NCBI GenBank assembly: GCA_015146655.1
Contig: VKHL01000033.1
Location: forward strand, 124,001 to 188,000
DNA: 64,000 bases
Direction: 5' to 3'
From: Ochromonas danica
Taxonomy: Eukaryota; Sar; Chrysophyceae; Chromulinales; Chromulinaceae
The translations under genes were made by a program, and so were the position numbers. The notes under the pieces are model-generated. The model ran no database searches. It had not been told where the DNA came from and saw nothing but the letters and a program-made list of their open reading frames with translations. How positions within the stretch are numbered: position 1 is the stretch's first letter; the number at the start of each line of letters is the position of its first letter. Shown here piece after piece: positions 15,077 to 38,624 of this stretch.

Positions 15077-18000
15077 ATGCCGTCTTCTCCTCTTCCAATA
15101 ATGCAATGCTCACGTCATTATTATGCTTCATTCTTACTTACTTTCGTCTGTTACCTTCTCTTCGGTTTTATTATCAGTGCTTCTAGCACACCAGATCCAT
15201 CTATGGTAGGGAACCACTCTCGTGGCGCCTGGTCATCTTTCTATCAACGCCAGTTAGGAGTCTTACTCACTAGATTTCAAGGGGAAATTCTCTATTCGTC
15301 AGAACATACTGTGTTCTATGATTTAAATGGGCAGACAGATGGTCCCCATAATCTCTATCAAATTGCTAGTACTGAAATTAAGAAAGAGTTAGTGAATGTT
15401 CATGTGAAGAAGATCACAGTCGATCCCAGCATGAATTGCTCTCTGACTCTTGGTCAAGAATCTATGAAAGGAATGAAAGTTTTCAAGCTTTCACAAAATC
15501 CTCCTCTTCTCTATGAGAAGGAGAAGATGCCTTTCATATTCCCGAGGAAGAACACGACGAGCTTTGAAGTGGAATTATCACCTTTACGATCTCATCATAT
15601 TCCATTGAGCGATCCAACCAAGAAGATGTTGATCGTCTATACGACTTGTAATCATCTACCTATGACAATCTTATCCTTGCAATATATGAGATTGCCAAGT
15701 TCCATCGTCGATCTTCTGATTGTTGATGATCATTCCACGGATGGAACTGTGGAGTATTTGAGGAAGAAAGGGTTCGCAGTAATTAGTAAACCTCGTGCAA
15801 CTGGGTTGACAGATAGTTGGAATATTGGTTATCGATTCGCTGTCATGATGGGATATCCGTCTATCTTATTCACGAATAATGATGTCTTGCTGACAGCTGG
15901 TTCGCTTGGATTGATTCATTCTTCTATGGTTCACCACACGATGGTTGTTCCCTTGACGACAGAGAAAGGAGCTGGTCATAACCCTGCACAGGTAGAACTT
16001 GTATATTTGTATCTCTCTCTTTCTCTCTCTTCTCTTCTCTGGTGGATTGGTTACTAAATCAAGTCGTGTGTGATGTTGGTTTGTTAGTCTATTAGTAGAG
16101 CTCTTCAATTGCATGATAACATGGCTCCTTATTTAGAAGATATCACACAAGCAGACAGTATCCAAGCAACGTTGGCAAGAAAATTCTCTCATGCTAACAA
16201 AAGTGAGTCTCTGACTCTGCTGCAATTGTCATATGACTTGTTTCCTAATCATTTTTGTCATAATCTAGATGGGAGTGTTGTTTGCAAGGCCGTTCCCTCC
16301 AGATATCATAGCAAACCAAAGTTTAATGGCTTTAGCTTTGCTGTGAACACGGAACGTATAGCACCTGCAGCCTATAAAAAAGATAAATACCTGTTTGATC
16401 CTGGAGATGTTATTGTTGGCCAAGAGGATCATCTCATGAGCAGAATGAAGAAAGCTAATTTGCAGCCAATGATATTGTATTGCGTCTTCCTTTACCATTT
16501 CAAGTCAGTCACTGTATCTGCCGCCTCATCTGAAGCAGTAGTGCAGAAGTTGAAGGATAAGAAAGTTCGAATAGATTCTTCCAGAACAAGCCCGATCATT
16601 AAGCTGCAGTATCAAGATAGTAAGAATCACATGGTCTCTAAAACAATCGATATTCGTGAGGATTTGAGTTGGTATCACCCAGAAGCGCAACAGAAGCAAG
16701 GATTGAAATTGCAGAGAGTGGGAGAGAACAACACAAGCCAACAACTTGCCGTATGCTCTGGAGAAATGCCTTTTCCTCAAGTTCCTCTCTGGACACCTTC
16801 CTCCTTACCACCTTCTAATCTCTTATGGGGTGATGTTATTACTGATTCTTATTGTATCTATCCAACACATTGGTCTTCTCGATGTTCCAATCTTTCGCCA
16901 CTCTTCTCCAAGTCCTTCTCTGAGGACGACGTGGGTGCTCCCAAGTCAAAAGATGGAGGCAGTGTCATTTCTCCTGTTGTTATCGCCATCGCAACGTCAG
17001 GTGAGAGCTCTTATTTGTTTCTTTGCTTGTTTATCTTTGCATCGAATTGAGTAACTAATAGATTTGATAATATTATTTTCACAGATCCCATCAAGTATCC
17101 ATCGGCTGGTGATATCTTCACGGCCTATGAACTGGGCCAAGCATTACAGGCTCGTTTTAGTAATGTTCAAATTCGTTATCTTCGCCGTGGCCCACAATGG
17201 TATGCAGTGGAACATCTTTACGATGTTGATGTGCTCCTCACCCTGCTGGATGAATACGATCTATCCAAGATTCAGCCTCTTTACCAAACCATTCCGAAGG
17301 CTCGATCAGGTTCTCCTGGACCTTCCGTTTTAACCTGCAACGACAGTATCGTTAATGGCACTCTTGGAGATCCTTCTTGGTTTCACTTAAAGCTGCATTT
17401 GAAGCCCAGCTTGATTACCATTGCATGGATGCGGAACTGGTTTCAGCGATGGCTTATGAGGCCTTGGTTTGGACAATATGATCTTCTCCTGACCAGTTCT
17501 GTACTTTCCAAGTCATTCTTTGATCAGATTTCTTCCACGGTGGGGTTTTCTTCTCATTGCTCAATAAATTGTCCTAGTATGCGAGATCGGCAAGGTGTCT
17601 TCAATCGGCGAGCCGTTGTGGAGACTTTGGTCTTTCCAATAGCCACGAGTGTTCATGAAGAGTCAAAAGCGAATAGGAAACGAAGAGAGAGGAGCAGTGT
17701 ACAATGGTTTCGTAGCATGTTCACTGTTCGTAATCAAGGTCGGCCTATCTCGACGTCAAATACCTTTGTTCTTTACAAAGCGTTTATGAACATGGCAGGC
17801 ATGCAGCACATCAGCAACAAGCGTGAAGTGAATCTGTCTTCCTGGACTGCTCAAATCTTTTCGGGGATTGACTACATGTTCACTGGTTCTTATCACTTTT
17901 CTTGGCGTGATATAATGTCCTTTGATCCATCTACTATTCCAATGTGGAAAGGTCGAATACTTGGTAATGGATGGTCAAATGCACCAAATATGAGTGCTTG

Positions 18001-19579
18001 GGCGGAAATCAGCATAGGCCTTTTGCCTTACGAAATGGTGAAAGAGGTGAGGCGAAGTAAATACACTGCCATCTAATCCATTCTGTTTGTATTGATTGCA
18101 AGCATTGCATGTCTTAACTCATTCAACAGGCGTACAAAGTAGTCAAGATTGTGGTGGACGATGCTAACCATGTGACTGGTCCCTGGGGAAGTGTGAACTC
18201 ACGTGTGTTCGACGCCTTAGCTGCGGGAGCATTGGTTGTTTCGAACGGAGCATTTGGGATATACGAGCTGTTTGGAGAAGCTCTCGAAGAAGCCGATCTG
18301 CCTATGCCCATCTATACGTCTGGACAAGAGTTGGCTGCGACCATTGACTTCTTCCTTCGAAATGAGAATATCCGCTTGCGCGTGGTGGAGGTGATGAAGA
18401 AGGTTGTGGTGGAGAAGCACTCCTATTCGATACGAGCTGAGCAGTTGGCGGGTATCATCAAGCGATCATTCCATCTTGATCTTGTTCCAAGAGTTGAAAG
18501 TCATTGGGCCACCACAGCAGATCAATCACTCCATGGAATGAGTTCGACATGGTTGGATGAATCGGACACCTTCTCAAGCATTCCAGAATCTACTTCAGGT
18601 GATTATCCATGACGCTGTTTCCATCTGCATGGCCCATGGAGATAGTTCTCACTCTTTGCATGTTTGAAACACAGGATCCAAAGACCATGACATTGTTCAC
18701 GGTCCTGACGATTCCGCTCTGTTTGGCAATGCTTCTTTGCAAGCCTTGAATGGACCCAACTCCACTTATTCGGAAAGTGAAGAGACTCGCAGTAGTCTTT
18801 GTGTGGGAGTTCGAACCATGCCAAGTCAAATGGACTGGCTTTACATCTTTGTCAAATCTCTGCTTGTACAATATCAGAAATCTGTTTGGAGGTCGAGAAT
18901 CGACTTGAATATCCTATTGGTAGACACTGAGGCCAATAGCACTTTCATCGAACCTCTCTTTCAGCTCGTGGATCGACTTAACCGGGAAGGCGGAGGCGAA
19001 AAGCCATTGGTGGAAGCTCTCGCCTCTTCTCAGACGAGCAAGTACCAAAATCCTTTCTATGGATATGACTTCACTGATCGATTGTTGAAGTTCATGTTGA
19101 TGCGTTATCAACTCCATGAGGCTGTTTATCCCAATCCCAGCACCAATGATGGCAATATGCCGAAGAAGTCGCGACGCTCGAAAAGTGCTTCCCTTCGAGT
19201 GCCGCCATGTAGTTGGATCATGTTCACAAATGGAGATAATATGTACCATACAACATGGTTCGATAAGGTGGCGCCTGCTATGCTAGATAAGCAACTGGAA
19301 ATCATAGGATGGGACTTTATTACACATCATCCTCGTGGTCCTCAGAATGATATTCCAAGCCACCACATTAGTATGGAATTGAAGCGTGGTTTTGTTGACC
19401 TGGCCAGTGTGATGGTTCGCGCTGACCAGTATCTTAAACGAAGCACAGTATTCTTACCAGATGCCATGATAACGGATGATCTCCATGCCCGTGACTACTT
19501 TGTGGTTAAGCAGCTCGCAGCTTGTCTACCACCACATAGTGTTAAGATCATTCATCAATGCCTTTTATTTCATCAGTAA
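15077..19579 (+). CDS. Three-module glycosyltransferase, tandem copy A (six exons)
   Basis: Exons 15077-15991, 16088-16202, 16269-17000, 17085-18046, 18130-18598, 18675-19579; 1,365 residues; all five introns are GT-AG and the frame closes. An N-terminal hydrophobic segment (~13-36) acts as signal anchor or signal peptide. Module 1 (~180-430) is GT2-like: KKMLIVYTTCNH, LIVDDHSTDGT (~215), FTNNDVLL (~265) and an ED pair in VGQEDHLMSRM (~394). Module 2 (~585-1015) resembles CgeB-type Glyco_trans_1_2 (GT4 fold): ATSDPIKYPSAGDIF, then SRVFDALAAGALVVSNGAFG (~930-950). Module 3 (exon 6) looks GT-A-like with WIMFTNGDNMYHTTWF (~1245). Probably a Golgi enzyme building complex glycans; substrates unknown. 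Intron 2 (66 bases) is in frame without a stop. Relative to B-D it lacks six residues (ISFLYKKM region) and has unique segments in exons 3-5. Confidence 0.85.
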
Positions 19580-20798
19580 CGATATTACCGAGGATGGTGA
19601 AGATTTTGCATTTGTGCAATAGAATTTGGTGAGGTTTGTAGTGGTGTGTGCAATTTAACGGAAATAAAATAAACTGTCGATCAAAGTTGCCAAGGTTTGT
19701 GATTAGCTCGTTCAAGGGGTGGTAAAACGGTTCTACGTGGCCGGTTACGAGTGTATAAAGTGCTGATCATCGCGTTTAATTTTGTTGATTGCAGGGGTTC
19801 TACTTCTGTTCTTGTGGCTTCGGTGTCTTTGTAGGTTTGTCGGGATTGTTTAAGCGCCACACTTTGTAGGCAGCAGCAGGTAACTTTCGATCTACATAGA
19901 AAGAAGCAGTTCATAAAGATAAGAAAGCTGATCTTCATCAAGTAATAACCCTACCACTTGCACTATTCAGGCCAAATACTAGAAAAGAAGTAAAAGTCAT
20001 TGTAAGAACAATAAGCAGTGGTAATTTGTTCTGTGGATTCTTCTTATTCATGTCTCACTCACTGTTGATTTCTTTCCCCAATACGAGCTGTGTATTTTGA
20101 CTGGAATGGAGTGGAATTTGATTATGAGATGGTGAGAAATTGGATGACTCGGTGGATGGCAGAAAGAAACTGAAAAACAATCGAGGGACAAGAGAAGATG
20201 TGTGTGGGTCTGAAGCGCGTTTCTGACGAAAAGTTTCATATCAAATCTAACCTCAAGTGCTGCGGATCATATCGATCTTTTGGGTTCTATTAACATTGCA
20301 TGTACTGTAGTCTCTAACTTACGTTAGATGGCCGTGTAGCGCATTATTAGCATGTACTAGCTAGCTAACTGTTGCGGAGCACCAAAGCTATTCAGCCACT
20401 TCAACAGCATCAACAAGGCCACTCCTGAGTTTAGATAAACTTCGCTTAGTTTGTTGCTAAACAGCAAGTAAGCTGGAGTTTGGTAATACTAACATATGAT
20501 TCAATAGGACCAACCAGATGAAATATGGTCATCATGAAGCAAGGCACGAGATATGATGGCAGTTTCAGCTTCCACTGGAAATTCTTGAAGTTCTCCATTC
20601 TTGAAGTCCTATTACCATGAAAGGCTTGCAATAATCACAGCATGGTTAGCCAAGTGTATCCGTTATAATCTAATTGTATGGATCGCTATGTTATCGTTAG
20701 CTGACAACACAAATAGAACTGACAACTGAAAGTAAAGTCGACGTTGAAATGGGTAGGAATTAAAACACTGCTGCGGAAGATTAAGAGATTTCCTCTTT

Positions 20799-20933
20799 AC
20801 TTGCTATCCTCGAAGATGATGGCAAGCTTGCACATACTCTGCGTCTGAGCCTTCTTGGGGAACGAGATGGACAGCACGCCTTGCTTGAGCTTTGTCTCGG
20901 CAGTGGCATTCCCAGGCAGGCGAATCTTACGCT
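20799..20933 (-). pseudogene. Small heat-shock protein (Hsp20) C-terminal fragment
   Basis: The minus strand reads RKIRLPGNATAETKLKQG then VLSISFPKK and ends at a stop about 15 residues later. This matches the alpha-crystallin domain end (RxFRLPxNxD...LKxGVLxIxxPK). An AG directly precedes the CGT codon, so it could have been a last exon, but nothing upstream on this strand encodes the rest of the domain and the direct repeat starting at 20952 abuts it. Base composition is more GC-rich than the surroundings. Most likely a broken 3' remnant. Confidence 0.6.
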
Positions 20934-20951
20934 AGACCTTACCAAAGAATA

Positions 20952-21180
20952 GATTACTTCGTACCTACTCTCCTTTTATACCAAGGTTAAAACAGGCCAT
21001 CACAAGGATTAAGATGGATATATGTCGCACGGTAGCTTGCCAAGGATTGGATTGTCCTGGTTCTCTTATATTCGTTTTTGGCTGATTCTAACTGCTTTTT
21101 ACATGTTATAAGTTCCACTGTAGAGCTAATGATAAACCAAGTTAGAGATTAGCCAGGGGTCAAACCTCCCATGACGCGCG
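20952..21180. repeat. Intergenic direct repeat, unit 1 (A-B spacer)
   Basis: About 225 bases strongly similar to 27121-27342 in the B-C spacer, beginning GATTACTTCGTACCTACT and ending near AACCTCCCATGA, with scattered substitutions and small indels. No open frame is conserved. It is either part of the ancestral duplicated gene unit or a dispersed element. Confidence 0.75.
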
Positions 21181-21319
21181 GTGGTGTGACTTTTAAAAGC
21201 TTTCAAGGACCTTTTCGTTCCAGAGTTGGAGGTCTTTTATCGGCGATATCCATAGTCTTTTATCGACGGGAAAATCATCCTACTGGATATGGAAGATAAG
21301 AGAGAGCAAAAGAAAACAC

Positions 21320-21620
21320 AGAAAAAGATGATCCCATAGCCCTTTGTTTCTCAACAATGCCGCCCTTCTTCACATCGTCCACTATCATGTGACATTTGAA
21401 GTACGGGTCCAAAACATAAGCCAGCCAAATGTTGTCAGGCAAATACAAAACCCCATTCGTGGTGAATAAGCTCTTATAATATTAGATCATAGTCAGCGGA
21501 GTGGTGAATTATCATGTGCTTCGTGAGCCCTGACGTGCTTCCATCTGTTCGTGGGACCTTAAAGCTCACCTTCTTGCACTCTTCGTTGTTGCAATAGGCA
21601 TACCCCTAACTAGTGCTGAA
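21320..21620 (-). mobile_element. hAT-type DNA transposon remnant (BED zinc finger plus transposase fragment)
   Basis: On the minus strand a BED-like zinc finger is readable: CNNEEC, then GSTSGLTKHMIIHH (Cys-x4-Cys ... His-x4-5-His spacing). A stop follows, and then in another frame LYLPDNIWLAYVLDPYFK, which resembles the LDPRFK region near the C-terminus of hAT transposases. The middle of the transposase is missing and the pieces are out of frame, so this is an inactivated internal-deletion relic. No terminal inverted repeats or target duplications were found by eye. Confidence 0.45.
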
Positions 21621-22147
21621 ATACCGGCTCCAGACTGACATTATTTTAAGTAGGTATCTTATTTGGATACAAAGTCAAGCTCTTCGCGACTGAAGATGAA
21701 CGGTGATGGCGTCTTTCGATACCGTATCAAAAAAGATCCGAACGACACCGACTGTACTGTAACTAGATAGAGGTCTTGAAAATCGTTTGGTTTTGGCTAG
21801 GGCCTTTTGTATCGGTCGGAAAAAGCCGAACCTCGATGCAATTACGGGTTACTTAATTGAAGTCTAATTTACGATGCGATTTTAAAGTCTAACTTCGTGA
21901 TTTTAATGTAATTTATTACTTTCCTAAAAAGTTTGGAAGAGCAAAACAGTCCATATCGGCGGTATCGTGTCGGGTCAAAAGCGATACGATACAGCACCAA
22001 GACGCTCTTCTTCTTTCTACAGTACGGTGTCGCCTTCCAACGGCAGGAAACGTTCGGGCACTCAACTTCACCAACAAAGTAAAACAACACCGAAATCAAC
22101 AGTCACTGGTACCCATTCAAACTAACTGATTCTCCTCTTCTAAGACA

Positions 22148-25100
22148 ATGTTGTTATTACTGCATTGTTATTATGTTTCGTTACTCCTTCTTTCAATCTA
22201 TCGCCTTTTTCTCAACACTCCTGTTAGTGCTTCTAGTACACCAGAGCCATGTATCCCTGGACACCATTATCGGGACGCTTGGTTGACTCCCTATCAACGG
22301 CAGTTAAGAGTCTTACTCACAAGATTTCAAGGCGAAATCCTCTATTCAATGGAGAATTCAGTGCTATATGATTCAGATCAACAGTCTGATTATCCCCATA
22401 ATCTCTATCAAATTGCAAGTAAAGAAAGAGATAATAGTAAGGCAAACGTCTATTTGAAGAAGATCACAGTCGATCCCAGCATGAATTGCTCTCTGACTCT
22501 TGGTCAAGAATCTATGAAAGGAATGAAAGTTTTCAAGCTTTCACAAAATCCTCCTCTTCTCTATGAGAAGGAGAAGATGCCTTTCATATTCCCGAGGAAG
22601 AACACGACGAGCTTTGAAGTGGAATTATCACCTTTACGATCTCATCATATTCCATTGAGCGATCCAACCAAGAAGATGTTGATCGTCTATACGACTTGTA
22701 ATCATCTACCTATGACAATCTTATCCTTGCAATATATGAGATTGCCAAGTTCCATCGTCGATCTTCTGATTGTTGATGATCATTCCACGGATGGAACTGT
22801 GGAGTATTTGAGGAAGAAAGGGTTCGCAGTAATTAGTAAACCTCGTGCAACTGGGTTGACAGATAGTTGGAATATTGGTTATCGATTCGCTGTCATGATG
22901 GGATATCCGTCTATCTTATTCACGAATAATGATGTCTTGCTGACAGCTGGTTCGCTTGGATTGATTCATTCTTCTATGGTTCACCACACGATGGTTGTTC
23001 CCTTGACGACAGAGAAAGGAGCTGGTCATAACCCTGCACAGGTAGAACTTGTATATTTGTATCTCTCTCTTTCTCTCTCTTCTCTTCTCTGGTGGATTGG
23101 TTACTAAATCAAGTCGTGTGTGATGTTGGTTTGTTAGTCTATTAGTAGAGCTCTTCAATTGCATGAGAACATGACTCCTTATTTAGAAGATTTCACGCAA
23201 GCAGATAGTATCCAAGCAGGGTTGGCAAGATACTTTGCTCGTACGAACAAAAGTTAGTTTGTGTTTTTCTTGTCATTGTTATGTGGCTTGCTTGCTGATG
23301 ATTGTGTCATAATCTAGATGGCCGTATTAAGTGCAAGGCAGTTCCTTCGAGCTTTGACGGCATAGCAAAGTTTAATGGCTTTAGCTTTGCTGTGAACACG
23401 GAACGTATAGCACCTGCAGCCTATAAAAAAGATAAATACCTGTTTGATCCTGGAGATGTTATTGTTGGCCAAGAGGATCATCTCATGAGCAGAATGAAGA
23501 AAGCTAATTTGCAGCCAATGATATTGTATTGCGTCTTCCTTTACCATTTCAAGTCAGTCACTGTATCTGCCGCCTCATCTGAAGCAGTAGTGCAGAAGTT
23601 GAAGGATAAGAATGTTCGAATAGAGTCTTCTAAGACAAGCCCGATCATTAAGCTGCAGTATCAAGATAGTAAGAATCACACGGTCTCTAAAACAATCGAT
23701 ATTCGTGAAGATTTGAGTTGGTACCACCCTGAAGCGCAACAGAAGCAAGCATCGGAATTGCAGAGAGTGGGAGAGAACAACACAAGCCAACAACTTGCCG
23801 TGTGCTCTGGAGAAATGCCTTTTCCCCAAGCTCCTCTCTGGACACCTTCCTCCTTACCACCTTCTAATATCTCCTTCCTCTACAAGAAGATGTCGGGTGA
23901 TGTTATTACTGATTCTTATTGTATCTATCCAACACATTGGTCTTCTCGATGTTCCAATCTTTCGCCACTCTTCTCCAAGTCCTTCTCTGAGGACGACGTG
24001 GGTACTCTCAAGTCAAAAGATGGAGACAGTGTCATTTCTCCTGTTGTTATCGCCATCGCAACGTCAGGTGAGAGCTGTTTTTACTTGGTTGATGTTTGTT
24101 TGGTTGCTTGTTTGCATGTTTGCTTACTTGTTTGTTTGCTTACATTATTATAAACTATTTTACTCACAGATCCGATCCAGTATCCATCGGCTGGTGATAT
24201 CTTCACGGCCTATGAACTGGGCCAAGCATTACAGGCTCGCTTTAGTAATGTTCAAATTCGTTATCTTCGCCATGGCCCACAATGGTATGCAGTGGAACAT
24301 CTTTACGATGTTGATGTGCTCCTCACCCTGCTGGATGAATACGATCTATCCAAGATTCAGCCTCTTTACCAAACCATTCCGAAGGCTCGATCAGGTTCTC
24401 CTGGACCTTCCGTTTTAACCTGCAACAACAGTGCCGACGCTATAACTCTTGGAGATCCTTCTTGGTTTCACTTAAAGCTGCATTTGAAGCCCAGCTTGAT
24501 CACTATTGCATGGATGCGGAACTGGTTTCAGCAATGGCTTATGAGGCCTTGGCTTGGACAATATGATCTTCTATTGACCAGTTCGGCACTTTCCAAGTCA
24601 TTCTTTGATCAGATTTCTTCCACGGTGGGGTTTTCTTCTCATTGCTCAATAAATTGTCCTAGTATGCGAGATCGGCAAGGTGTCTTCAATCGGCGAGCCG
24701 TTGTGGAGACTTTGGTCTTTCCAATAGCCACGAGTGTTCATGAAGAGTCAAAAGCGAATAGGAAACGAAGAGAGAGGAGCAGTGTACAATGGTTTCGTAG
24801 CATGTTCACTGTCCGAAACCAAGGTAGGCCTACCTCGACCACATTGGTTTACAAGGCTATTATGCGCATGGGAGATATGGAACATGTTCTTAACAAACGT
24901 GAACTGAATATGTCTTCCTGGACTGCTCAACTCTTTTCCGGGGTTGACTATATCTTCACTGGTTCCTATCACTTTTCTTGGCGTGATATAATGTCCTTTG
25001 ATCCATCTACTATTCCAATGTGGAAAGGTCGAATACTTGGTAATGGATGGTCAAATGCACCAAATATGAGTGCTTGGGCGGAAATCAGCATAGGCCTTTT

Positions 25101-26634
25101 GCCTTACGAAATGGTGAAAGAGGTGAGGCGAAGTAAATACACTGCCATCTAATCCATTCTGTTTGTATTGATTGCAAGCATTGCATGTCTTAACTCATTC
25201 AACAGGCGTACAAAGTAGTCAAGATTGTGGTGGACGATGCTAACCATGTGACTGGTCCCTGGGGAAGTGTGAACTCACGTGTGTTCGACGCCTTAGCTGC
25301 GGGAGCATTGGTTGTTTCGAACGGAGCATTTGGGATATACGAGCTGTTTGGAGAAGCTCTCGAAGAAGCCGATCTGCCTATGCCCATCTATACGTCTGGA
25401 CAAGAGTTGGCTGCGACCATTGACTTCTTCCTTCGAAATGAGAATATCCGCTTGCGCGTGGTGGAGGTGATGAAGAAGGTTGTGGTGGAGAAGCACTCCT
25501 ATTCGATACGAGCTGAGCAGTTGGCGGGAATTCTCAAGCGATCATTCCATCTTGATCTTGTTCCAAGAGTTGAAAGTCATCGAGCCACCACAACAGATCA
25601 TTCACTCCATGGAGAATCAGACACCTTCTCAAGCATTCCAGAATCTACTTCAGGTGATTATCCATGACGCTGTTTCCATCTGCATGGCCCATGGAGATAG
25701 TTCTCACTCTTTGCATGTTTGAAACACAGGATCCAAAGACCATGACATTGTTCACGGTCCTGACGATTCCGCTCTGTTTGGCAATGCTTCTTTGCAAGCC
25801 TTGAATGGACCCAACTCCACTTATTCGGAAAGTGAAGAGACTCGCAGTAGTCTTTGTGTGGGAGTTCGAACCATGCCAAGTCAAATGGACTGGCTTTACA
25901 TCTTTGTCAAATCTCTGCTTGTACAATATCAGAAATCTGTTTGGAGGTCGAGAATCGACTTGAATATCCTATTGGTAGACACTGAGGCCAATAGCACTTT
26001 CATCGAACCTCTCTTTCAGCTCGTGGATCGACTTAACCGGGAAGGCGGAGGCGAAAAGCCATTGGTGGAAGCTCTCGCCTCTTCTCAGACGAGCAAGTAC
26101 CAAAATCCTTTCTATGGATATGACTTCACTGATCGATTGTTGAAGTTCATGTTGATGCGTTATCAACTCCATGAGGCTGTTTATCCCAATCCCAGCACCA
26201 ATGATGGCAATATGCCGAAGAAGTCGCGACGCTCGAAAAGTGCTTCCCTTCGAGTGCCGCCATGTAGTTGGATCATGTTCACAAATGGAGATAATATGTA
26301 CCATACAACATGGTTCGATAAGGTGGCGCCTGCTATGCTAGATAAGCAACTGGAAATCATAGGATGGGACTTTATTACACATCATCCTCGTGGTCCTCAG
26401 AATGATATTCCAAGCCACCACATTAGTATGGAATTGAAGCGTGGTTTTGTTGACCTGGCCAGTGTGATGGTTCGCGCTGACCAGTATCTTAAACGAAGCA
26501 CAGTATTCTTACCAGATGCCATGATAACGGATGATCTCCATGCCCGTGACTACTTTGTGGTTAAGCAGCTCGCAGCTTGTCTACCACCACATAGTGTTAA
26601 GATCATTCATCAATGCCTTTTATTTCATCATTAA
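22148..26634 (+). CDS. Three-module glycosyltransferase, tandem copy B (six exons)
   Basis: Exons 22148-23041, 23138-23252, 23318-24067, 24170-25122, 25206-25653, 25730-26634; 1,354 residues. Architecture as in copy A: N-terminal hydrophobic segment, GT2-like module (LIVDDHSTDGT, FTNNDVLL, QEDHLM), CgeB-type GT4-like module, and GT-A-like C-terminal module with TNGDNMYH. Introns 1, 4 and 5 (96, 83, 76 bases) appear identical to those in the other copies; intron 2 is 65 bases and intron 3 is 102, both shared only with copy C. From about 20 bases upstream of the ATG to within exon 5 I saw no difference from copy C, while the 3' flank instead matches copy A. The N-terminal ~100 residues differ from A and D. 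Confidence 0.85.
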
Positions 26635-27996
26635 TGATATTACCAAGAATAGTTTAAATTTTGCATTTGTGCAATAGAATTCGGTGTGGCTTGTGGAGTT
26701 GGTGCAATTTTCGATTTTTTGGTCGTCTTATACACGTTATGCGAAAATTATAATTTTTGTGTTACCGAACAAATGTCACGTTTTTGGGCCCCATTCATAT
26801 CATGCTTAATCGACTTGTGGGAAGTTAAAGCCAAAGTGTTTGGAAACTGGGAGATATGTTTGAACCATCCCCTCTTCAAAAGTTGATGCGAGAAATTGTT
26901 TACTTTAAGAGGAACGACTTCCCGCTTCCAGCGTAATTGGTCAGACTTGAATTTTAATCTCCCATGCAACCACCTGTTAACTTAACTAAGCCATCCATCC
27001 ATCTTTTCCAGCGCGATTAAGTTGCAGAGAGCCTAATTGTTACTAGAAATTGTCATCGCACACTGGTTCAACCAAAGCTCTCTTGCTCCAATCGAAGATG
27101 TTCTTACTGTTTTCGGGTTAGATTGCTTCGTACCTACCCTCCTTTTATACCAAGGTTAAAACAGGCCATCACAAGGATTAAGATGGACATATGTCGCACG
27201 GTAGCTTGCCAAGGATTGGGTTGTTCTGGTTCTCTTATATTCGTTTTTGGCTGATTCTAACTGCTTACAAGTACAAGTTCCACTGCTGATGATAAACCAA
27301 GTTAGACAGTAACTAGGGATTAAACCTCCCATGAATGCGCGTGCCTTTGAGTTATAAAATGCTTTGCCGTGCCTTGGCAATGCCTTGAGGTCCGTCGGCC
27401 AGTAGACGAGTCATACCAAGCCCGCTCTGTGCCTCGAGGCTTCATGGTCCATGGCACTATATCTCCTTTCAATAACTTAGTTCGCGTCATTATATTATCT
27501 TTCATTTGCCAGTATTTCAATACAATGATTATTAGCCAGCCTTGATGATCCTCACTGGAAATTATTTCATTTTCAACTTACAATCTAATACGCCGTGATT
27601 AGTCTAATTGACTATATTCGTGTGAAACAGGCAAGATTCTAAATCACTCTTTGCTTTTACGAACACATTAACAGAGCAGCTTTTAATTAATCATTTCACA
27701 TACAGGGCAAGCATTTGAAAATCTCATGTGATTTGAAAAATGATTGGAAAAGCCGAAAATGAACGAGAAAAATGCCAAAAAACCTATAACGAAACGCCTG
27801 AGGGGACATTTTTTCAACCAGAAATGCATTATGCGACTTTCCTGACAATCAAAAGTGATTTTAAAAGCCCTTTTCGCGACTCGATTTTGCGCGATTATTC
27901 ACAATTCCACTACTTGAACAGTTCGAGTTGCAGTCAATAGTCAATGGACACCCTTCAACCCATCAAATCAAAAACTAATTCTCCTCTTCTAAGACA
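26635..27996. other. Spacer between glycosyltransferase copies B and C
   Basis: 1.4 kb. It begins with a 3' flank related to that of copy A and contains the second intergenic repeat unit (27121-27342). Similarity to the region upstream of copy B starts only about 20 bases before the ATG, at the shared TTCTCCTCTTCTAAGACA. No gene was seen. Confidence 0.55.
27121..27342. repeat. Intergenic direct repeat, unit 2 (B-C spacer)
   Basis: Counterpart of 20952-21180 in the same orientation, sharing TTTTATACCAAGGTTAAAAC and TTATATTCGTTTTTGGCTGA. It differs by substitutions and by indels near its 3' end. Confidence 0.75.
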
Positions 27997-30900
27997 ATGT
28001 TATTATTACTGCATTGTTATTATGTTTCGTTACTCCTTCTTTCAATCTATCGCCTTTTTCTCAACACTCCTGTTAGTGCTTCTAGTACACCAGAGCCATG
28101 TATCCCTGGACACCATTATCGGGACGCTTGGTTGACTCCCTATCAACGGCAGTTAAGAGTCTTACTCACAAGATTTCAAGGCGAAATCCTCTATTCAATG
28201 GAGAATTCAGTGCTATATGATTCAGATCAACAGTCTGATTATCCCCATAATCTCTATCAAATTGCAAGTAAAGAAAGAGATAATAGTAAGGCAAACGTCT
28301 ATTTGAAGAAGATCACAGTCGATCCCAGCATGAATTGCTCTCTGACTCTTGGTCAAGAATCTATGAAAGGAATGAAAGTTTTCAAGCTTTCACAAAATCC
28401 TCCTCTTCTCTATGAGAAGGAGAAGATGCCTTTCATATTCCCGAGGAAGAACACGACGAGCTTTGAAGTGGAATTATCACCTTTACGATCTCATCATATT
28501 CCATTGAGCGATCCAACCAAGAAGATGTTGATCGTCTATACGACTTGTAATCATCTACCTATGACAATCTTATCCTTGCAATATATGAGATTGCCAAGTT
28601 CCATCGTCGATCTTCTGATTGTTGATGATCATTCCACGGATGGAACTGTGGAGTATTTGAGGAAGAAAGGGTTCGCAGTAATTAGTAAACCTCGTGCAAC
28701 TGGGTTGACAGATAGTTGGAATATTGGTTATCGATTCGCTGTCATGATGGGATATCCGTCTATCTTATTCACGAATAATGATGTCTTGCTGACAGCTGGT
28801 TCGCTTGGATTGATTCATTCTTCTATGGTTCACCACACGATGGTTGTTCCCTTGACGACAGAGAAAGGAGCTGGTCATAACCCTGCACAGGTAGAACTTG
28901 TATATTTGTATCTCTCTCTTTCTCTCTCTTCTCTTCTCTGGTGGATTGGTTACTAAATCAAGTCGTGTGTGATGTTGGTTTGTTAGTCTATTAGTAGAGC
29001 TCTTCAATTGCATGAGAACATGACTCCTTATTTAGAAGATTTCACGCAAGCAGATAGTATCCAAGCAGGGTTGGCAAGATACTTTGCTCGTACGAACAAA
29101 AGTTAGTTTGTGTTTTTCTTGTCATTGTTATGTGGCTTGCTTGCTGATGATTGTGTCATAATCTAGATGGCCGTATTAAGTGCAAGGCAGTTCCTTCGAG
29201 CTTTGACGGCATAGCAAAGTTTAATGGCTTTAGCTTTGCTGTGAACACGGAACGTATAGCACCTGCAGCCTATAAAAAAGATAAATACCTGTTTGATCCT
29301 GGAGATGTTATTGTTGGCCAAGAGGATCATCTCATGAGCAGAATGAAGAAAGCTAATTTGCAGCCAATGATATTGTATTGCGTCTTCCTTTACCATTTCA
29401 AGTCAGTCACTGTATCTGCCGCCTCATCTGAAGCAGTAGTGCAGAAGTTGAAGGATAAGAATGTTCGAATAGAGTCTTCTAAGACAAGCCCGATCATTAA
29501 GCTGCAGTATCAAGATAGTAAGAATCACACGGTCTCTAAAACAATCGATATTCGTGAAGATTTGAGTTGGTACCACCCTGAAGCGCAACAGAAGCAAGCA
29601 TCGGAATTGCAGAGAGTGGGAGAGAACAACACAAGCCAACAACTTGCCGTGTGCTCTGGAGAAATGCCTTTTCCCCAAGCTCCTCTCTGGACACCTTCCT
29701 CCTTACCACCTTCTAATATCTCCTTCCTCTACAAGAAGATGTCGGGTGATGTTATTACTGATTCTTATTGTATCTATCCAACACATTGGTCTTCTCGATG
29801 TTCCAATCTTTCGCCACTCTTCTCCAAGTCCTTCTCTGAGGACGACGTGGGTACTCTCAAGTCAAAAGATGGAGACAGTGTCATTTCTCCTGTTGTTATC
29901 GCCATCGCAACGTCAGGTGAGAGCTGTTTTTACTTGGTTGATGTTTGTTTGGTTGCTTGTTTGCATGTTTGCTTACTTGTTTGTTTGCTTACATTATTAT
30001 AAACTATTTTACTCACAGATCCGATCCAGTATCCATCGGCTGGTGATATCTTCACGGCCTATGAACTGGGCCAAGCATTACAGGCTCGCTTTAGTAATGT
30101 TCAAATTCGTTATCTTCGCCATGGCCCACAATGGTATGCAGTGGAACATCTTTACGATGTTGATGTGCTCCTCACCCTGCTGGATGAATACGATCTATCC
30201 AAGATTCAGCCTCTTTACCAAACCATTCCGAAGGCTCGATCAGGTTCTCCTGGACCTTCCGTTTTAACCTGCAACAACAGTGCCGACGCTATAACTCTTG
30301 GAGATCCTTCTTGGTTTCACTTAAAGCTGCATTTGAAGCCCAGCTTGATCACTATTGCATGGATGCGGAACTGGTTTCAGCAATGGCTTATGAGGCCTTG
30401 GCTTGGACAATATGATCTTCTATTGACCAGTTCGGCACTTTCCAAGTCATTCTTTGATCAGATTTCTTCCACGGTGGGGTTTTCTTCTCATTGCTCAATA
30501 AATTGTCCTAGTATGCGAGATCGGCAAGGTGTCTTCAATCGGCGAGCCGTTGTGGAGACTTTGGTCTTTCCAATAGCCACGAGTGTTCATGAAGAGTCAA
30601 AAGCGAATAGGAAACGAAGAGAGAGGAGCAGTGTACAATGGTTTCGTAGCATGTTCACTGTCCGAAACCAAGGTAGGCCTACCTCGACCACATTGGTTTA
30701 CAAGGCTATTATGCGCATGGGAGATATGGAACATGTTCTTAACAAACGTGAACTGAATATGTCTTCCTGGACTGCTCAACTCTTTTCCGGGGTTGACTAT
30801 ATCTTCACTGGTTCCTATCACTTTTCTTGGCGTGATATAATGTCCTTTGATCCATCTACTATTCCAATGTGGAAAGGTCGAATACTTGGTAATGGATGGT

Positions 30901-32483
30901 CAAATGCACCAAATATGAGTGCTTGGGCGGAAATCAGCATAGGCCTTTTGCCTTACGAAATGGTGAAAGAGGTGAGGCGAAGTAAATACACTGCCATCTA
31001 ATCCATTCTGTTTGTATTGATTGCAAGCATTGCATGTCTTAACTCATTCAACAGGCGTACAAAGTAGTCAAGATTGTGGTGGACGATGCTAACCATGTGA
31101 CTGGTCCCTGGGGAAGTGTGAACTCACGTGTGTTCGACGCCTTAGCTGCGGGAGCATTGGTTGTTTCGAACGGAGCATTTGGGATATACGAGCTGTTTGG
31201 AGAAGCTCTCGAAGAAGCCGATCTGCCTATGCCCATCTATACGTCTGGACAAGAGTTGGCTGCGACCATTGACTTCTTCCTTCGAAATGAGAATATCCGC
31301 TTGCGCGTGGTGGAGGTGATGAAGAAGGTTGTGGTGGAGAAGCACTCCTATTCGATACGAGCTGAGCAGTTGGCGGGAATTCTCAAGCGATCATTCCGTC
31401 TTGATCTTGTTCCAAGAGTTGAAAGTCATCGAGCCACCACAACAGATCATTCACTCCATGGAGAATCGGAAACCTTCTCAAGCATTCCAGAATCTACTTC
31501 AGGTGATTATCCATGACGCTGTTTCCATCTGCATGGCCCATGGAGATAGTTCTCACTCTTTGCATGTTTGAAACACAGGATCCAAAGACCATGACATTGT
31601 TCACGGTCCTGACGATTCCGCTCTGTTTGGCAATGCTTCTTTGCAAGCCTTGAATGGACCCAACTCCACTTATTCGGAAAGTGAAGAGACTCGCAGTAGT
31701 CTTTGTGTGGGAGTTCGAACCATGCCAAGTCAAATGGACTGGCTTTACATCTTTGTCAAATCTCTGCTTGTACAATATCAGAAATCTGTTTGGAGGTCGA
31801 GAATCGACTTGAATATCCTATTGGTAGACACTGAGGCCAATAGCACTTTCATCGAACCTCTCTTTCAGCTCGTGGATCGACTTAACCGGGAAGGCGGAGG
31901 CGAAAAGCCATTGGTGGAAGCTCTCGCCTCTTCTCAGACGAGCAAGTACCAAAATCCTTTCTATGGATATGACTTCACTGATCGATTGTTGAAGTTCATG
32001 TTGATGCGTTATCAACTCCATGAGGCTGTTTATCCCAATCCCAGCACCAATGATGGCAATATGCCGAAGAAGTCGCGACGCTCGAAAAGTGCTTCCCTTC
32101 GAGTGCCGCCATGTAGTTGGATCATGTTCACAAATGGAGATAATATGTACCATACAACATGGTTCGATAAGGTGGCGCCTGCTATGCTAGATAAGCAACT
32201 GGAAATCATAGGATGGGACTTTATTACACATCATCCTCGTGGTCCTCAGAATGATATTCCAAGCCACCACATTAGTATGGAATTGAAGCGTGGTTTTGTT
32301 GACCTGGCCAGTGTGATGGTTCGCGCTGACCAGTATCTTAAACGAAGCACAGTATTCTTACCAGATGCCATGATAACGGATGATCTCCATGCCCGTGACT
32401 ACTTTGTGGTTAAGCAGCTCGCAGCTTGTCTACCACCACATAGTGTTAAGATCATTCATCAATGCCTGTTATTTCATCATTAA
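27997..32483 (+). CDS. Three-module glycosyltransferase, tandem copy C (six exons)
   Basis: Exons 27997-28890, 28987-29101, 29167-29916, 30019-30971, 31055-31502, 31579-32483; 1,354 residues, a constant 5,849-base offset from copy B. All modules and motifs are as in copy B. The only differences from B that I noticed lie in the last part: His to Arg in KRSFRLDLVPR and the SETFSS segment of exon 5, and the final codons. At those sites C matches copy D instead, as does its 3' flank. The near-identity over more than 3 kb including five introns shows a very recent duplication or conversion event. Confidence 0.85.
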
Positions 32484-32891
32484 TTGATCTCATAGAACAG
32501 TATGAGGTTGTGAGGAATTGGATGGTTGGTCTCTTCTCTCGTCACTCGACCTCCATTCAATTTCTCTCCCCTATATGACAAGAGACCAGTTCTGGTTTAA
32601 TCAGTAAACTGCATTTATGTTTTAACTGTCATGTTGGCTATATTAGATCTTCCAGACTTCTGCGTTGATATATTAGAATAGCTATATACTACTGTAGTAC
32701 TGTATGGCTAGATCTATAAGAACTTGCATGAGTGTCGCATATTTTGCATCCTCACTATTGACCAACAGAATAATCTTAATGAAGGATCCTCATGCATGTC
32801 GCTTTTGTTTTGTTCATAAGCTCCGCAGGAATCACTTGCAAACACTGGGTTATGACACAGACAAGACTAAACCACTACTCTGTCATCATTA

Positions 32892-33021
32892 ACGGGTTCT
32901 GTCGATTTGTATCACTGATACTATTTAAATAGTATAGGGGTCGACCCCTATACTAATTGGACTCCCTATACTATTTGGACTAGACTATTTATACAATACT
33001 ATACAAATCGGCAGAACCCGT
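32892..33021. mobile_element. Palindromic MITE with 21-bp terminal inverted repeats and TA flanks
   Basis: The left end ACGGGTTCTGTCGATTTGTA and the right end TACAAATCGGCAGAACCCGT are inverted repeats with one mismatch over 21 bases, and TA dinucleotides flank both ends, as for Tc1/mariner-type insertions. Inside is a perfect 26-base palindrome (32930-32955, centred on GGGGTCGACCCC) plus further copies of CTATACTATT. Too short (130 bases) to encode a transposase, so a non-autonomous foldback element. Confidence 0.75.
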
Positions 33022-33205
33022 TATTATAGCCAGAAGAACATTACTGGCTCTGAAAATGGGTCTCCGTGTCCATGTCTTAAATAAGTGCCGACCAACAAGA
33101 GCAGTCTACCTCTCCTGGAAGATCGAGAAGAGTAACCTCTTGCTCAGTATAATCACTCACCGTTACAAGCAGTTTAAACGCAATAAATTGAAGTTCTTGA
33201 TCAAT

Positions 33206-33258
33206 CCGAAGTTAAGTCCATCTCAGAAGTTAAGTCCATCATAGAAGTTAAGTCCATT
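33206..33258. repeat. Three 18-base tandem repeats
   Basis: Three consecutive near-copies of AGAAGTTAAGTCCATCTC lie in the spacer between copies C and D. No coding sense is apparent. Confidence 0.7.
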
Positions 33259-34085
33259 CTCTCTCCATCACAGAATATTTGAAAGGTCGACAAGTTCTGC
33301 AGAGTTGAAAACTTGGACGATGAATACTATATTATTGGGAATTTCCAACATGCAGCCTTGGAAGCATGGAAAAGAGTGGACTGTACTGTAATCGTGATCG
33401 CATGAGAGGTGGAAAATAATGATCCCTAATATGTGAAGCCCATTCGCAAAGCCTTGCTGGGGTAGAGACTTGCTGATCGAAGGAATAAATGCGACTTACG
33501 AATTTGATCTTCATCATAACGAGAGCAACGAGTCTCATAATGAGACACGAAAGAAGACCAGCGAAGTCGAAGAGTTGATTTAATTTGCGCCTTATTTGAA
33601 TCAAAGGGAAGAAAAGTTGTATTAACTTGTTAATAATCAAATCATCTAGAGAGGGAAAACATGTCAATCCAGACGACAACCACAGAACCAAAATCCACTC
33701 TCAACTTACAAATCTCCATTTCCCTTTCAACTCTCCCATTTTCCCCGTCTAACGCTTTTTACAATGAATTAAAGTAACTCTTTTACTAGGAATTGGCGAG
33801 AGGGGATGTTGTATGAATGTACAGCGTAGAAATGGTGATGGTGAAGAAGAAAGCAGAACCAGAAACACTAGAGTACCTTAGGTACAAGCGCAGCCATAAA
33901 AACGAGAAGACTAAGCATCGGTATCGTATCAGGGTATCGGCTTTTTCGACCCAAGTATCGATCGGGACCCTGTGGACAAAGAAACCTGCTGTGGTTGGTT
34001 GATTGGTGCATTTGGCGAGTTTAATCTCCATATTTCCGAGTTTGGTGCAACTTTTGAAGAGCAGATTTGCAAAACAAATCCAATA

Positions 34086-37000
34086 ATGTTGAAGATGATA
34101 ACATCTCTTTCTCTCTCAAGATGGTACTCTTGTCGTCGTTATTATGCTTCATTCTTCCTACTTTCCATCCTTTGCCTCCTTCTCAGGAGTTTTGTTGGTG
34201 GTGCTAATATCACAGAACCGTCTATCCCAGGATACCATTCCCAAAACCTGCTGCCTAACCATAATGAACATAAATTCAAACCTGCTTTATGGTCATCTCC
34301 CTATCAACAGCAGTTAAGTATATTATCAACAAGATATCAAGGGGAAGTTCTCTATTCGTCAGAACACACTGTGTTCTATGATTCAGATAAACACTCAGAT
34401 CGTCCCCATAACCTTTACCAAATTAATAGTACTGAAATTCACAATGAGCTAGTGAATGTTCATGTGAAGAAGATCACAGTCGATCCTTGCATGAATTGCT
34501 CTCTGACTCTTGGTCAAGAATCTATGAAAGGAATGGAAGTATTCAAGCTTTCACAAAATCCTCCGCTTCTCTATGAGAAGGAGAAGATGCCTTTCATATT
34601 CCCGAGGAAGAACACGACGAGCTTTGAAGTGGAATTATCACCTTTACGATCTCATCATATTCCATTGAGCGATCCAACCAAGAAGATGTTGATCGTCTAT
34701 ACGACTTGTAATCATCTACCTATGACAATCTTATCCTTGCAATATATGAGATTGCCAAGTTCCATCGTCGATCTTCTGATTGTTGATGATCATTCCACGG
34801 ATGGAACTGTGGAGTATTTGAGGAAGAAAGGGTTCGCAGTAATTAGTAAACCTCGTGCAACTGGGTTGACAGATAGTTGGAATATTGGTTATCGATTCGC
34901 TGTCATGATGGGATATCCGTCTATCTTATTCACGAATAATGATGTCTTGCTGACAGCTGGTTCGCTTGGATTGATTCATTCTTCTATGGTTCACCACACG
35001 ATGGTTGTTCCCTTGACGACAGAGAAAGGAGCTGGTCATAACCCTGCACAGGTAGAACTTGTATATTTGTATCTCTCTCTTTCTCTCTCTTCTCTTCTCT
35101 GGTGGATTGGTTACTAAATCAAGTCGTGTGTGATGTTGGTTTGTTAGTCTATTAGTAGAGCTCTTCGATTGCATGAGAACATGACTCCTTATTTAGAAGA
35201 TTTCACGCAAGCAGACAGTATCCAAGCAGGGTTGGCAAGATACTTTGCTCGTACGAACAAAAGTTAGTCTCTGACTCTGCTGCAATTGTCATATGACTTG
35301 TTTCCTAATCATTTTTGTCATAATCTAGATGGGAGTGTTGTTTGCAAGGCCGTTCCCTCCAGATATCATAGCAAACCAAAGTTTAATGGCTTTAGCTTTG
35401 CTGTGAACACGGAACGTATAGCACCTGCAGCCTATAAAAAAGATAAATACCTGTTTGATCCTGGAGATGTTATTGTTGGCCAAGAGGATCATCTCATGAG
35501 CAGAATGAAGAAAGCTAATTTGCAGCCAATGATATTGTATTGCGTCTTCCTTTACCATTTCAAGTCAGTCACTGTATCTGCCGCCTCATCTGAAGCAGTA
35601 GTGCAGAAGTTGAAGGATAAGAATGTTCGAATAGAGTCTTCTAAGACAAGCCCGATCATTAAGCTGCAGTATCAAGATAGTAAGAATCACACGGTCTCTA
35701 AAACAATCGATATTCGTGAAGATTTGAGTTGGTACCACCCTGAAGCGCAACAGAAGCAAGCATCGGAATTGCAGAGAGTGGGAGAGAACAACACAAGCCA
35801 ACAACTTGCCGTGTGCTCTGGAGAAATGCCTTTTCCCCAAGCTCCTCTCTGGACACCTTCCTCCTTACCACCTTCTAATATCTCCTTCCTCTACAAGAAG
35901 ATGTCGGGTGATGTTATTACTGATTCTTATTGTATCTATCCAACACATTGGTCTTCTCGATGTTCCAATCTTTCGCCACTCTTCTCCAAGTCCTTCTCTG
36001 AGGACGACGTGGGTGCTCCCAAGTCAAAAGATGGAGGCAGTGTCATTTCTCCTGTTGTTATCGCCATCGCAACGTCAGGTGAGAGCTCTTATTTGTTTCT
36101 TTGCTTGTTTATCTTTGCATCGAATTGAGTAACTAATAGATTTGATAATATTATTTTCACAGATCCCATCAAGTATCCATCGGCTGGTGATATCTTCACG
36201 GCCTATGAACTGGGCCAAGCATTACAGGCTCGTTTTAGTAATGTTCAAATTCGTTATCTTCGCCGTGGCCCACAATGGTATGCAGTGGAACATCTTTACG
36301 ATGTTGATGTGCTCCTCACCCTGCTGGATGAATACGATCTATCCAAGATTCAGCCTCTTTACCAAACCATTCCGAAGGCTCGATCAGGTTCTCCTGGACC
36401 TTCCGTTTTAACCTGCAACGACAGTATCGTTAATGGCACTCTTGGAGATCCTTCTTGGTTTCACTTAAAGCTGCATTTGAAGCCCAGCTTGATTACCATT
36501 GCATGGATGCGGAACTGGTTTCAGCGATGGCTTATGAGGCCTTGGTTTGGACAATATGATCTTCTCCTGACCAGTTCTGTACTTTCCAAGTCATTCTTTG
36601 ATCAGATTTCTTCCACGGTGGGGTTTTCTTCTCATTGCTCAATAAATTGTCCTAGTATGCGAGATCGACAAGGTGTCTTCAATCGGCGAGCCGTTGTGGA
36701 GACTTTGGTCTTTCCATTGGCCACGAGTGTTCATGAAGAGTCAAAAGCGAATAGGAACAAAAGAGAGAGGAGCAGTGTACAATGGTTTCGTAGCATGTTC
36801 ACTGTTCGTAATCAAGGGCGATCCACCCCCTGGGTTTTACGCAACGATTTTGCGAATGCGGGAGATATGGAACATGTTCTTAACAAACGTGAACTGAATA
36901 TGTCTTCCTGGACTGCTCAACTCTTTTCCGGGGTTGACTATATCTTCACTGGTTCCTATCACTTTTCTTGGCGTGATATAATGTCCTTTGATCCATCTAC

Positions 37001-38624
37001 TATTCCAATGTGGAAAGGTCGAATACTTGGTAATGGATGGTCAAATGCACCAAATATGAGTGCTTGGGCGGAAATCAGCATAGGCCTTTTGCCTTACGAA
37101 ATGGTGAAAGAGGTGAGGCGAAGTAAATACACTGCCATCTAATCCATTCTGTTTGTATTGATTGCAAGCATTGCATGTCTTAACTCATTCAACAGGCGTA
37201 CAAAGTAGTCAAGATTGTGGTGGACGATGCTAACCATGTGACTGGTCCCTGGGGAAGTGTGAACTCACGTGTGTTCGACGCCTTAGCTGCGGGAGCATTG
37301 GTTGTTTCGAACGGAGCATTTGGGATATACGAGCTGTTTGGAGAAGCTCTCGAAGAAGCCGATCTGCCTATGCCCATCTATACGTCTGGACAAGAGTTGG
37401 CTGCGACCATTGACTTCTTCCTTCGAAATGAGAATATCCGCTTGCGCGTGGTGGAGGTGATGAAGAAGGTTGTGGTGGAGAAGCACTCCTATTCGATACG
37501 AGCTGAGCAGTTGGCGGGAATTCTCAAGCGATCATTCCGTCTTGATCTTGTTCCAAGAGTTGAAAGTCATCGAGCCACCACAACAGATCATTCACTCCAT
37601 GGAGAATCGGAAACCTTCTCAAGCATTCCAGAATCTACTTCAGGTGATTATCCATGACGCTGTTTCCATCTGCATGGCCCATGGAGATAGTTCTCACTCT
37701 TTGCATGTTTGAAACACAGGATCCAAAGACCATGACATTGTTCACGGTCCTGACGATTCCGCTCTGTTTGGCAATGCTTCTTTGCAAGCCTTGAATGGAC
37801 CCAACTCCACTTATTCGGAAAGTGAAGAGACTCGCAGTAGTCTTTGTGTGGGAGTTCGAACCATGCCAAGTCAAATGGACTGGCTTTACATCTTTGTCAA
37901 ATCTCTGCTTGTACAATATCAGAAATCTGTTTGGAGGTCGAGAATCGACTTGAATATCCTATTGGTAGACACTGAGGCCAATAGCACTTTCATCGAACCT
38001 CTCTTTCAGCTCGTGGATCGACTTAACCGGGAAGGCGGAGGCGAAAAGCCATTGGTGGAAGCTCTCGCCTCTTCTCAGACGAGCAAGTACCAAAATCCTT
38101 TCTATGGATATGACTTCACTGATCGATTGTTGAAGTTCATGTTGATGCGTTATCAACTCCATGAGGCTGTTTATCCCAATCCCAGCACCAATGATGGCAA
38201 TATGCCGAAGAAGTCGCGACGCTCGAAAAGTGCTTCCCTTCGAGTGCCGCCATGTAGTTGGATCATGTTCACAAATGGAGATAATATGTACCATACAACA
38301 TGGTTCGATAAGGTGGCGCCTGCTATGCTAGATAAGCAACTGGAAATCATAGGATGGGACTTTATTACACATCATCCTCGTGGTCCTCAGAATGATATTC
38401 CAAGCCACCACATTAGTATGGAATTGAAGCGTGGTTTTGTTGACCTGGCCAGTGTGATGGTTCGCGCTGACCAGTATCTTAAACGAAGCACAGTATTCTT
38501 ACCAGATGCCATGATAACGGATGATCTCCATGCCCGTGACTACTTTGTGGTTAAGCAGCTCGCAGCTTGTCTACCACCACATAGTGTTAAGATCATTCAT
38601 CAATGCCTGTTATTTCAACATTGA
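34086..38624 (+). CDS. Three-module glycosyltransferase, tandem copy D (six exons)
   Basis: Exons 34086-35051, 35148-35262, 35329-36078, 36163-37112, 37196-37643, 37720-38624; 1,377 residues, the longest copy. Motifs are as in copies A-C. The sequence is a patchwork: N-terminal SSEHTVFYD, intron 2/exon 3 start, intron 3 (84 bases) and the NDSIVNGT segment of exon 4 match copy A; the middle of exon 3, KRELNMSSWTAQLFSGVDYI and exon 5 match copies B and C; STPWVLRNDFANAGDM in exon 4 is unique. Intron 2 has the same length as in A (66) but carries an in-frame stop, unlike A. The first ATG (34086) was chosen; the frame extends upstream without an ATG. Confidence 0.85.

Follow-up and report, generated by a model that had tools for sequence, protein, structure and literature searches.

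Blockwise identity in a tandem array of four glycosyltransferase genes of Ochromonas danica, probably a product of recurrent ectopic gene conversion

Results and discussion

We analysed a window of 64,000 nucleotides from Ochromonas danica (Chrysophyceae; positions 124001–188000 of contig VKHL01000033.1, here C33), which belongs to a genome assembly of 31.2 Mb in 337 contigs. Between positions 15077 and 38624 of the window lie four intact glycosyltransferase genes, g1–g4, arranged head to tail and all on the + strand, in which long blocks identical in every copy alternate with strongly diverged islands. Very probably the tandem array is old, and its glycosyltransferase genes, which are of secretory type and multi-module, are undergoing homogenisation by recurrent ectopic (non-allelic) gene conversion. 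Ectopic conversion was favoured because zero synonymous divergence in the blocks occurs beside diverged islands, g4 is chimeric, the spacers have diverged, no donor was found outside the array in the assembled genome, and a second gene family, the hybrid histidine kinases, behaves alike on both strands.

Four intact six-exon genes encode multi-module proteins

Each gene comprised six exons and five GT..AG introns with phases 0, 1, 1, 0 and 1. The first, g1 (15077–19579; exons 15077–15991, 16088–16202, 16269–17000, 17085–18046, 18130–18598 and 18675–19579), is a GT2/Glyco_trans_1_2 glycosyltransferase gene with an open frame of 1365 amino acids (aa). The second and third copies, g2 (22148–26634; exons 22148–23041, 23138–23252, 23318–24067, 24170–25122, 25206–25653 and 25730–26634) and g3 (27997–32483; exons 27997–28890, 28987–29101, 29167–29916, 30019–30971, 31055–31502 and 31579–32483), both encode 1354 aa. 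The fourth, g4 (34086–38624; exons 34086–35051, 35148–35262, 35329–36078, 36163–37112, 37196–37643 and 37720–38624), encodes 1377 aa, although its start might instead be at 34095. An earlier reading made from the letters of the window (the sequence-only reading) had proposed four head-to-tail genes of six exons; the gene models bore this out and its outer coordinates were exact, although the proteins that it called giant are, at ~1360 aa, multi-domain rather than giant.

All four proteins consist of a hydrophobic N-terminal stretch, a PF00535 (glycosyltransferase family 2, GT2) module, a PF13524 (Glyco_trans_1_2) module and a C-terminal part encoded by exon 6. The PF00535 match scored 27.7 bits against a curated cut-off of 23.3, and the PF13524 match, over residues 873–1014, 55 bits against a cut-off of 25; we take the latter to be a module of GT-B type. 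The DXD-like and ED-like acidic motifs at the GT2 module read NND and QED in g1–g4 and are presumably the GT2 catalytic motifs. Both Pfam matches and both motifs fell within homogenised blocks.

Exon 6 had zero matches in Pfam or NCBIfam, and no relative of it was confirmed in bacterial or archaeal genomes or in viral contigs. Structure predictions were too poor for a fold search, both for exon 6 (two-sequence alignment; predicted local distance difference test score, pLDDT, 43.6) and for exon 4 (four sequences; pLDDT 30.5). Exon 6 might conceivably encode a third transferase module, for which there was neither a family match nor a confident fold. Relatives of exon 1 were found at 11 viral-contig loci, covering the GT2 part only (30–31% identity over approximately residues 183–422, E-value 1e-2); one of these (L055) carried, by eye, NND and NED at the motif places. 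Among solved structures the best match had an E-value of 0.21, and a search for PF00201 gave no match. We set aside a PF02512 match (E-value 0.033) and, for exons 1 and 3, weak NCBIfam matches, all of them below their respective cut-offs.

Identical blocks alternate with variable islands

Alignment of g1–g4 yielded 4437 ungapped gene columns with 328 polymorphic sites. These sites were far from evenly spread: the longest stretches without any difference among the four genes measured 996, 601, 562 and 247 bp, compared with a longest run of 82 bp on average, and 180 bp at the extreme, when the 328 sites were placed at random 5000 times. The identity profile along the genes was thus blockwise rather than one of uniform divergence, with differences between copies reaching ~40% in the islands and some blocks at an intermediate 94–98% identity. 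As the sequence-only reading had noticed, introns 1 (96 bp), 4 (83 bp) and 5 (76 bp) lay, together with long exon stretches, inside runs identical in all four copies; introns 2 and 3 each occurred in two types, intron 3 in one version in g1 and g4 and in the other in g2 and g3.

In g1 coordinates (+ strand), the first homogenised block, H1 (15506–16106, 601 bp), spans the second half of exon 1, including the whole PF00535 match with its VDDHSTDG and NND motifs, intron 1 and the start of exon 2. H2 (16317–16563, 247 bp) carries the GT2 QED motif. H3 (17891–18452, 562 bp) covers the end of exon 4, intron 4 and most of exon 5, with the whole PF13524 match, and H4 (18568–19563, 996 bp) covers the end of exon 5, intron 5 and nearly all of exon 6. 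Between them lie the islands: V1 (15077–15505), made up of the hydrophobic segment at the N-terminus and the adjoining stretch, with 61–64% aa identity among g1, g2 and g4; V2 (16107–16316), which holds the rest of exon 2, intron 2 and the start of exon 3; V3–V4 (16564–17890), with the rest of exon 3, the two-type intron 3 and the first ~800 bp of exon 4; and the small V5 (18453–18567), at the end of exon 5, with a 21-bp indel. Strong differences in the N-terminus, exons 3–4 and the spacers, also proposed earlier, held among g1, g2 and g4 but not for the g2 and g3 genes, and the strongly variable N-terminal part extended over approximately the first 110–140 codons rather than ~100.

Silent sites and introns are unchanged within the homogenised blocks

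Between g1 and g2 we counted 0 synonymous differences at 468 sites in the H blocks and ~78 at 423 sites in the islands (Fisher test, p ~1e-27). The islands themselves were unequal, with a synonymous divergence (dS) of 0.51 in V1 and 0.08 in V3 (p 2e-6), which indicates blocks of different ages; across islands and pairs dS reached 0.85. These data bear on the idea that the paralogs are old and that purifying selection alone has preserved the identity of their H blocks. The H blocks do encode modules that are on the whole more conserved (52–70% aa identity, compared with 21–63% for the V blocks) relative to L037, a paralog on contig C16 (C16:87377–91686; 1319 codons, ~50% aa identity, all five introns matching in position and phase). 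However, introns 1, 4 and 5 were unchanged along with all 468 synonymous sites, and the same H blocks were synonymously saturated against the C16 gene, to which dS was saturated or above 1.2 in every block of the array. Codon-level constraint is thus not the cause of their identity, and we regard selection alone as refuted. The earlier argument had relied on intron identity for this step. Identity of introns and silent sites does rule out selection alone; by itself, however, it leaves recent duplication possible, which is excluded by the diverged islands and spacers.

Nor did the islands call for selection of a different kind. The ratio of nonsynonymous to synonymous divergence (dN/dS) per island and pair among g1, g2 and g4 was 0.26–0.96 where computable; in the small comparison of g2 and g4 at V3 there were 3 nonsynonymous and 0 synonymous differences. 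Judged from these comparisons, the islands appear to be fast-evolving regions without dN/dS above 1, for which diversifying selection is neither needed nor shown. The suggestion that the variable blocks serve to diversify the choice of acceptors or donors was therefore not supported, since dN/dS was in this range, the islands were the least constrained and most indel-rich parts relative to the C16 gene, and the presumed catalytic motifs lay in homogenised blocks; the islands might still have some effect on acceptor choice.

Comparison with the C16 gene linked variability within the array to divergence from this paralog (Spearman 0.61, 35 windows). Variable columns made up 47 of the 96 columns gapped in the C16 gene, compared with 137 of the 1319 aligned, and the difference was retained without V1 (29/76 vs 64/1174). 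The islands look like the N-terminal stretch plus linker- and loop-like parts of the protein. At the motif places the C16 gene carries NSG instead of NND and QEI instead of QED, which suggests that its first module may be inactive or altered.

A further explanation is a diversification cassette, in which one gene was recently amplified and diverged patches were then imported from donors. Sharp-edged islands inside otherwise identical genes would fit such imports. Yet whole-genome DNA and protein searches of the assembled genome revealed no donor copies or fragments for the islands: the C16 gene, a single copy, was the sole other close relative, besides a weak local match on contig C44. Recently amplified units would, moreover, have near-identical spacers, unlike those of the array, and we consider import from cassettes very improbable.

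The fourth gene is a mosaic and the spacers have not followed the genes

Over 4519 aligned bp, g2 and g3 differed by 6 mismatches and one gap; being 99.8% identical throughout the gene, they reduce the array to three sequence types. The fourth gene, g4, is a mosaic of g1-like and g2-like runs, five of them major: along the 165 informative sites that follow V1 it switches type only 10 times, compared with a mean of 77.5 and a minimum of 55 switches in 10000 permutations. One switch falls inside intron 2 (in V2), which in g4 starts g2-like and continues g1-like from between positions 35265 and 35269. The longest concordant runs of polymorphic sites were significant for g1–g4, g2–g3, g2–g4 and g3–g4 (p<=1e-4, the floor of 10000 permutations) and weaker for g1–g2 (p 0.012) and g1–g3 (p 0.008).

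The spacers could be aligned in short pieces only, even though the g2 and g3 genes are 99.8% identical. Spacers 1 and 2 have in common 256 bp at 87%, 76 bp at 83% and 31 bp at 90%; spacers 3 and 4 have in common 41 bp at 95% and, inverted, 46 bp at 85%; and spacers 1 and 4 have in common 106 bp at 72%. The 256-bp alignment (20950–21203 in spacer 1, 27119–27365 in spacer 2) is a remnant of an old unit duplication. Such remnants, the head-to-tail order and the near identity of g2 and g3 are what serial unequal crossing-over, the birth and death of whole units, would leave behind if it had made the copies alike. Under that process, however, spacers should move with the genes, and here they differ where the genes are identical; the alternating runs of g4 would need several double exchanges; and the homogenised kinase copies described below also occur in opposite orientation. 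We therefore judge this process an improbable source of the pattern. The sequence-only reading had called for either ectopic conversion or serial unequal exchange: conversion is supported, and serial unequal exchange alone is insufficient.

The assembly preserves intermediate and single-base differences

An assembly artefact, in which a short-read assembler collapsed similar stretches and pasted one consensus four times, deserves somewhat more weight than unequal crossing-over and is nevertheless unlikely. The identity of the H blocks is exact beside highly diverged islands, as bubble collapse could yield. Against collapse, the intermediate divergence of the 94–98% blocks was preserved; single-base markers that tell g2 from g3 and g4 survive in V5, between two long invariant runs; and the same assembly kept apart the units, 99.8–99.9% identical, of a tandem array on contig C224. 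Moreover, no N occurred in the window or in 41 further loci examined, and open frames and splice sites were kept in all four genes. This evidence for a sound assembly is indirect.

Histidine-kinase genes are homogenised within contigs

Conversion is not special to the glycosyltransferase array, as histidine-kinase genes show the same pattern. Downstream in the window lie two hybrid histidine-kinase genes on the + strand, A (49401–51986) and B (53277–56015), the former with HATPase_c and Response_reg domains and two large open reading frames (ORFs) joined across one putative intron. A stretch of 589 bp (50237–50825 in A, 54110–54698 in B), including the putative intron, is 99.66% identical between them and lies between poorly alignable parts, the N-terminal halves among them. 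It contains a 282-bp core (50516–50797 in A, 54389–54670 in B; + strand) that is homogenised among copies of the same contig.

A DNA search of the genome gave 74 candidates, of which the 40 that were scored contained at least 117 matching stretches, and the family is larger than the compared set, which consisted of all 40 loci with the 282-bp core from the scored candidates, none dropped. A first comparison used 30 loci, chosen since nearly all were on multi-copy contigs, and 10 others were added later. The proportion of synonymous differences (pS) was below 0.2 in 34 of the 38 same-contig pairs (median 0.036), where the pairs are not independent, the figures are counts rather than rates, and many are plain recent duplicates with similar flanks, which inflate the 34. 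By comparison, 9 of the 742 different-contig pairs had pS below 0.2 (median 0.68), and among the first 30 loci none of the 400 between-contig pairs had pS below 0.15.

A stricter test demanded at least 95% identity in the core and less than 55% in each of the two 200-bp flanks. It was passed by 16 of the 38 same-contig pairs (12 on C33, 3 on C135 and 1 on C29), compared with 2 of the 742 others (C20–C161). Seven of the 16 were in opposite orientation and their separation reached 131.5 kb; the 12 on C33 stem from three gene groups. In all, a core of ~280 bp was 95–100% identical within a contig, on both strands, with unalignable flanks, and on C33, C135 and C29 the block edges coincided to within ~40 bp. 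The core was largely contig-specific (C33, C53, C135, C29 and other contigs) and saturated between most contigs.

A possible reading, to which we give a little less than even weight, is that homogenisation is genome-wide and limited by neighbourhood: same-contig paralogs, in either orientation and over distances of at least 131 kb, would repeatedly overwrite sharply bounded coding blocks, copies on other contigs would mostly be saturated, and the glycosyltransferase array would be one outcome. If so, each chromosomal neighbourhood evolves its own dialect of the kinase core, and the array combines frozen catalytic modules with free-running loops and N-termini.

A proposed divergence-limited mechanism

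In the simplest account, stretches that constraint keeps alike between the copies go on being converted, whereas too much drift blocks the process. A break in one copy would be repaired by copying from a neighbouring copy. Tracts may begin in stretches that purifying selection on the encoded catalytic modules has kept alike and that are still identical, and would end once the copies differ too much to exchange strands. Islands past such a threshold (the N-terminal stretch, linkers, loops and introns 2 and 3) would therefore persist and drift on. An occasional tract could carry a whole island between copies, as may have happened between g2 and g3 and between g1 and g4 in either direction, and the number of copies may go back to unequal crossing-over at an earlier time.

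Several points weigh against recurrent ectopic conversion or its confinement to neighbourhoods. The H blocks showed no clear rise in GC (0.405–0.468, compared with 0.390–0.446 in the V blocks), so that there was no signature of GC-biased conversion. On contig C50 the kinase copies at 39k and 43k were not homogenised with that at 119k (76–80 kb apart), nor on C5 was the copy at 39.9k with those at 219k and 222k (180 kb apart), each with pS of 0.85–0.94. Conversely, the two C20–C161 gene pairs combine a 97% core with unalignable flanks across contigs, so either the limit to cis is not absolute or both contigs belong to one chromosome. The data come from one genome assembly, and with four copies the direction of single events cannot be polarised.

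Relation to known cases of gene conversion

The process is of a known kind, of which the array is an unusually clear case; more unusual is the contig-limited pattern of the kinases. In the copepod genes GOT1p1 and GOT1p2 of Tigriopus californicus, a mosaic of diverged islands and undiverged stretches was ascribed to ongoing gene conversion, with occasional transfer of a divergent block yielding new combinations (PMC3728101). The likeness lies in diverged islands beside undiverged stretches in paralogs; the Tigriopus case concerns paralog pairs across populations, whereas here four tandem copies, with three introns fully homogenised, are seen in one genome (PMC3728101). The human pairs BMP8A/B, DDX19A/B and TUBG1/2 underwent long-term concerted evolution, for which the similarity of at least one intron served as a criterion against purifying selection (PMC2720389). 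They resemble the array in their homogenised segments but are pairs followed across mammals, whereas ours is a four-gene array seen in one genome (PMC2720389).

According to a review on Caenorhabditis, interlocus conversion favours the same chromosome, 3.7-fold in C. elegans and ~3–6-fold in yeast, mouse and Drosophila, while a human study cited there saw no proximity effect once family distribution was controlled (PMC3966223). Conversion there occurs in either orientation and may span short introns, and surviving tracts tend to 50–200 nt (PMC3966223). The same-contig bias, the indifference to orientation and the inclusion of introns are alike in our data, whereas our identical runs, up to 996 bp, exceed those tracts and are probably several merged ones (PMC3966223). 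In the diatom Synedra ulna subsp. danica, the neighbouring silicon transporter genes SuSIT1 and SuSIT2 are identical, for which the authors offered very recent duplication or conversion; they also wrote, in 2018, that they knew of no diatom genome in which non-crossover conversion had been found (PMC6114903). Those are two fully identical genes, and the paper's passages on them describe no mosaic (PMC6114903). Excerpts of the open-licence literature on conversion in algae, diatoms, stramenopile histidine kinases and protists (including PMC3129679) contained no report of the array or of the kinase pattern.

Where zero silent change adjoins islands with up to ~40% difference, in the same genes and across introns, the points at which conversion ends can be read with unusual clarity. 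If the kinase family is added, with its 40 compared core loci and similar edges on three contigs, thresholds of conversion for distance, orientation and divergence could become measurable within a single small genome. Trees and duplication dates derived from whole genes of such arrays are misleading.

Other genes and repeats

Just upstream of the array, a proteasome-like ORF (13644–14549) has an acidic insert; a hydrophobic N-terminal stretch lies ahead of it in the same frame. Further upstream, on the - strand, lies a pair of similar genes at 6374–10118 (6374–7788, in which a PH domain was found, and 8654–10118), where runs of 98–100% identity occur between stretches mostly at 88–96%. A 605-bp inverted repeat at 95.5% identity occupies 3750–4354 and 11884–12487.

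Elsewhere in the genome there are many light-harvesting (PF00504) genes. The best solved relatives of one PF00504 protein include light-harvesting complex I (LHCI) chains from one entry, then fucoxanthin chlorophyll a/c proteins and VCPI, presumably of the violaxanthin type, which points to a photosynthetic stramenopile as the likely source. The light-harvesting gene on C224 (L040/L041) forms, at ~8.2–17.4 kb of that contig, a tandem array with a period of 2407 bp, three full units and a partial fourth, 99.8–99.9% identical.

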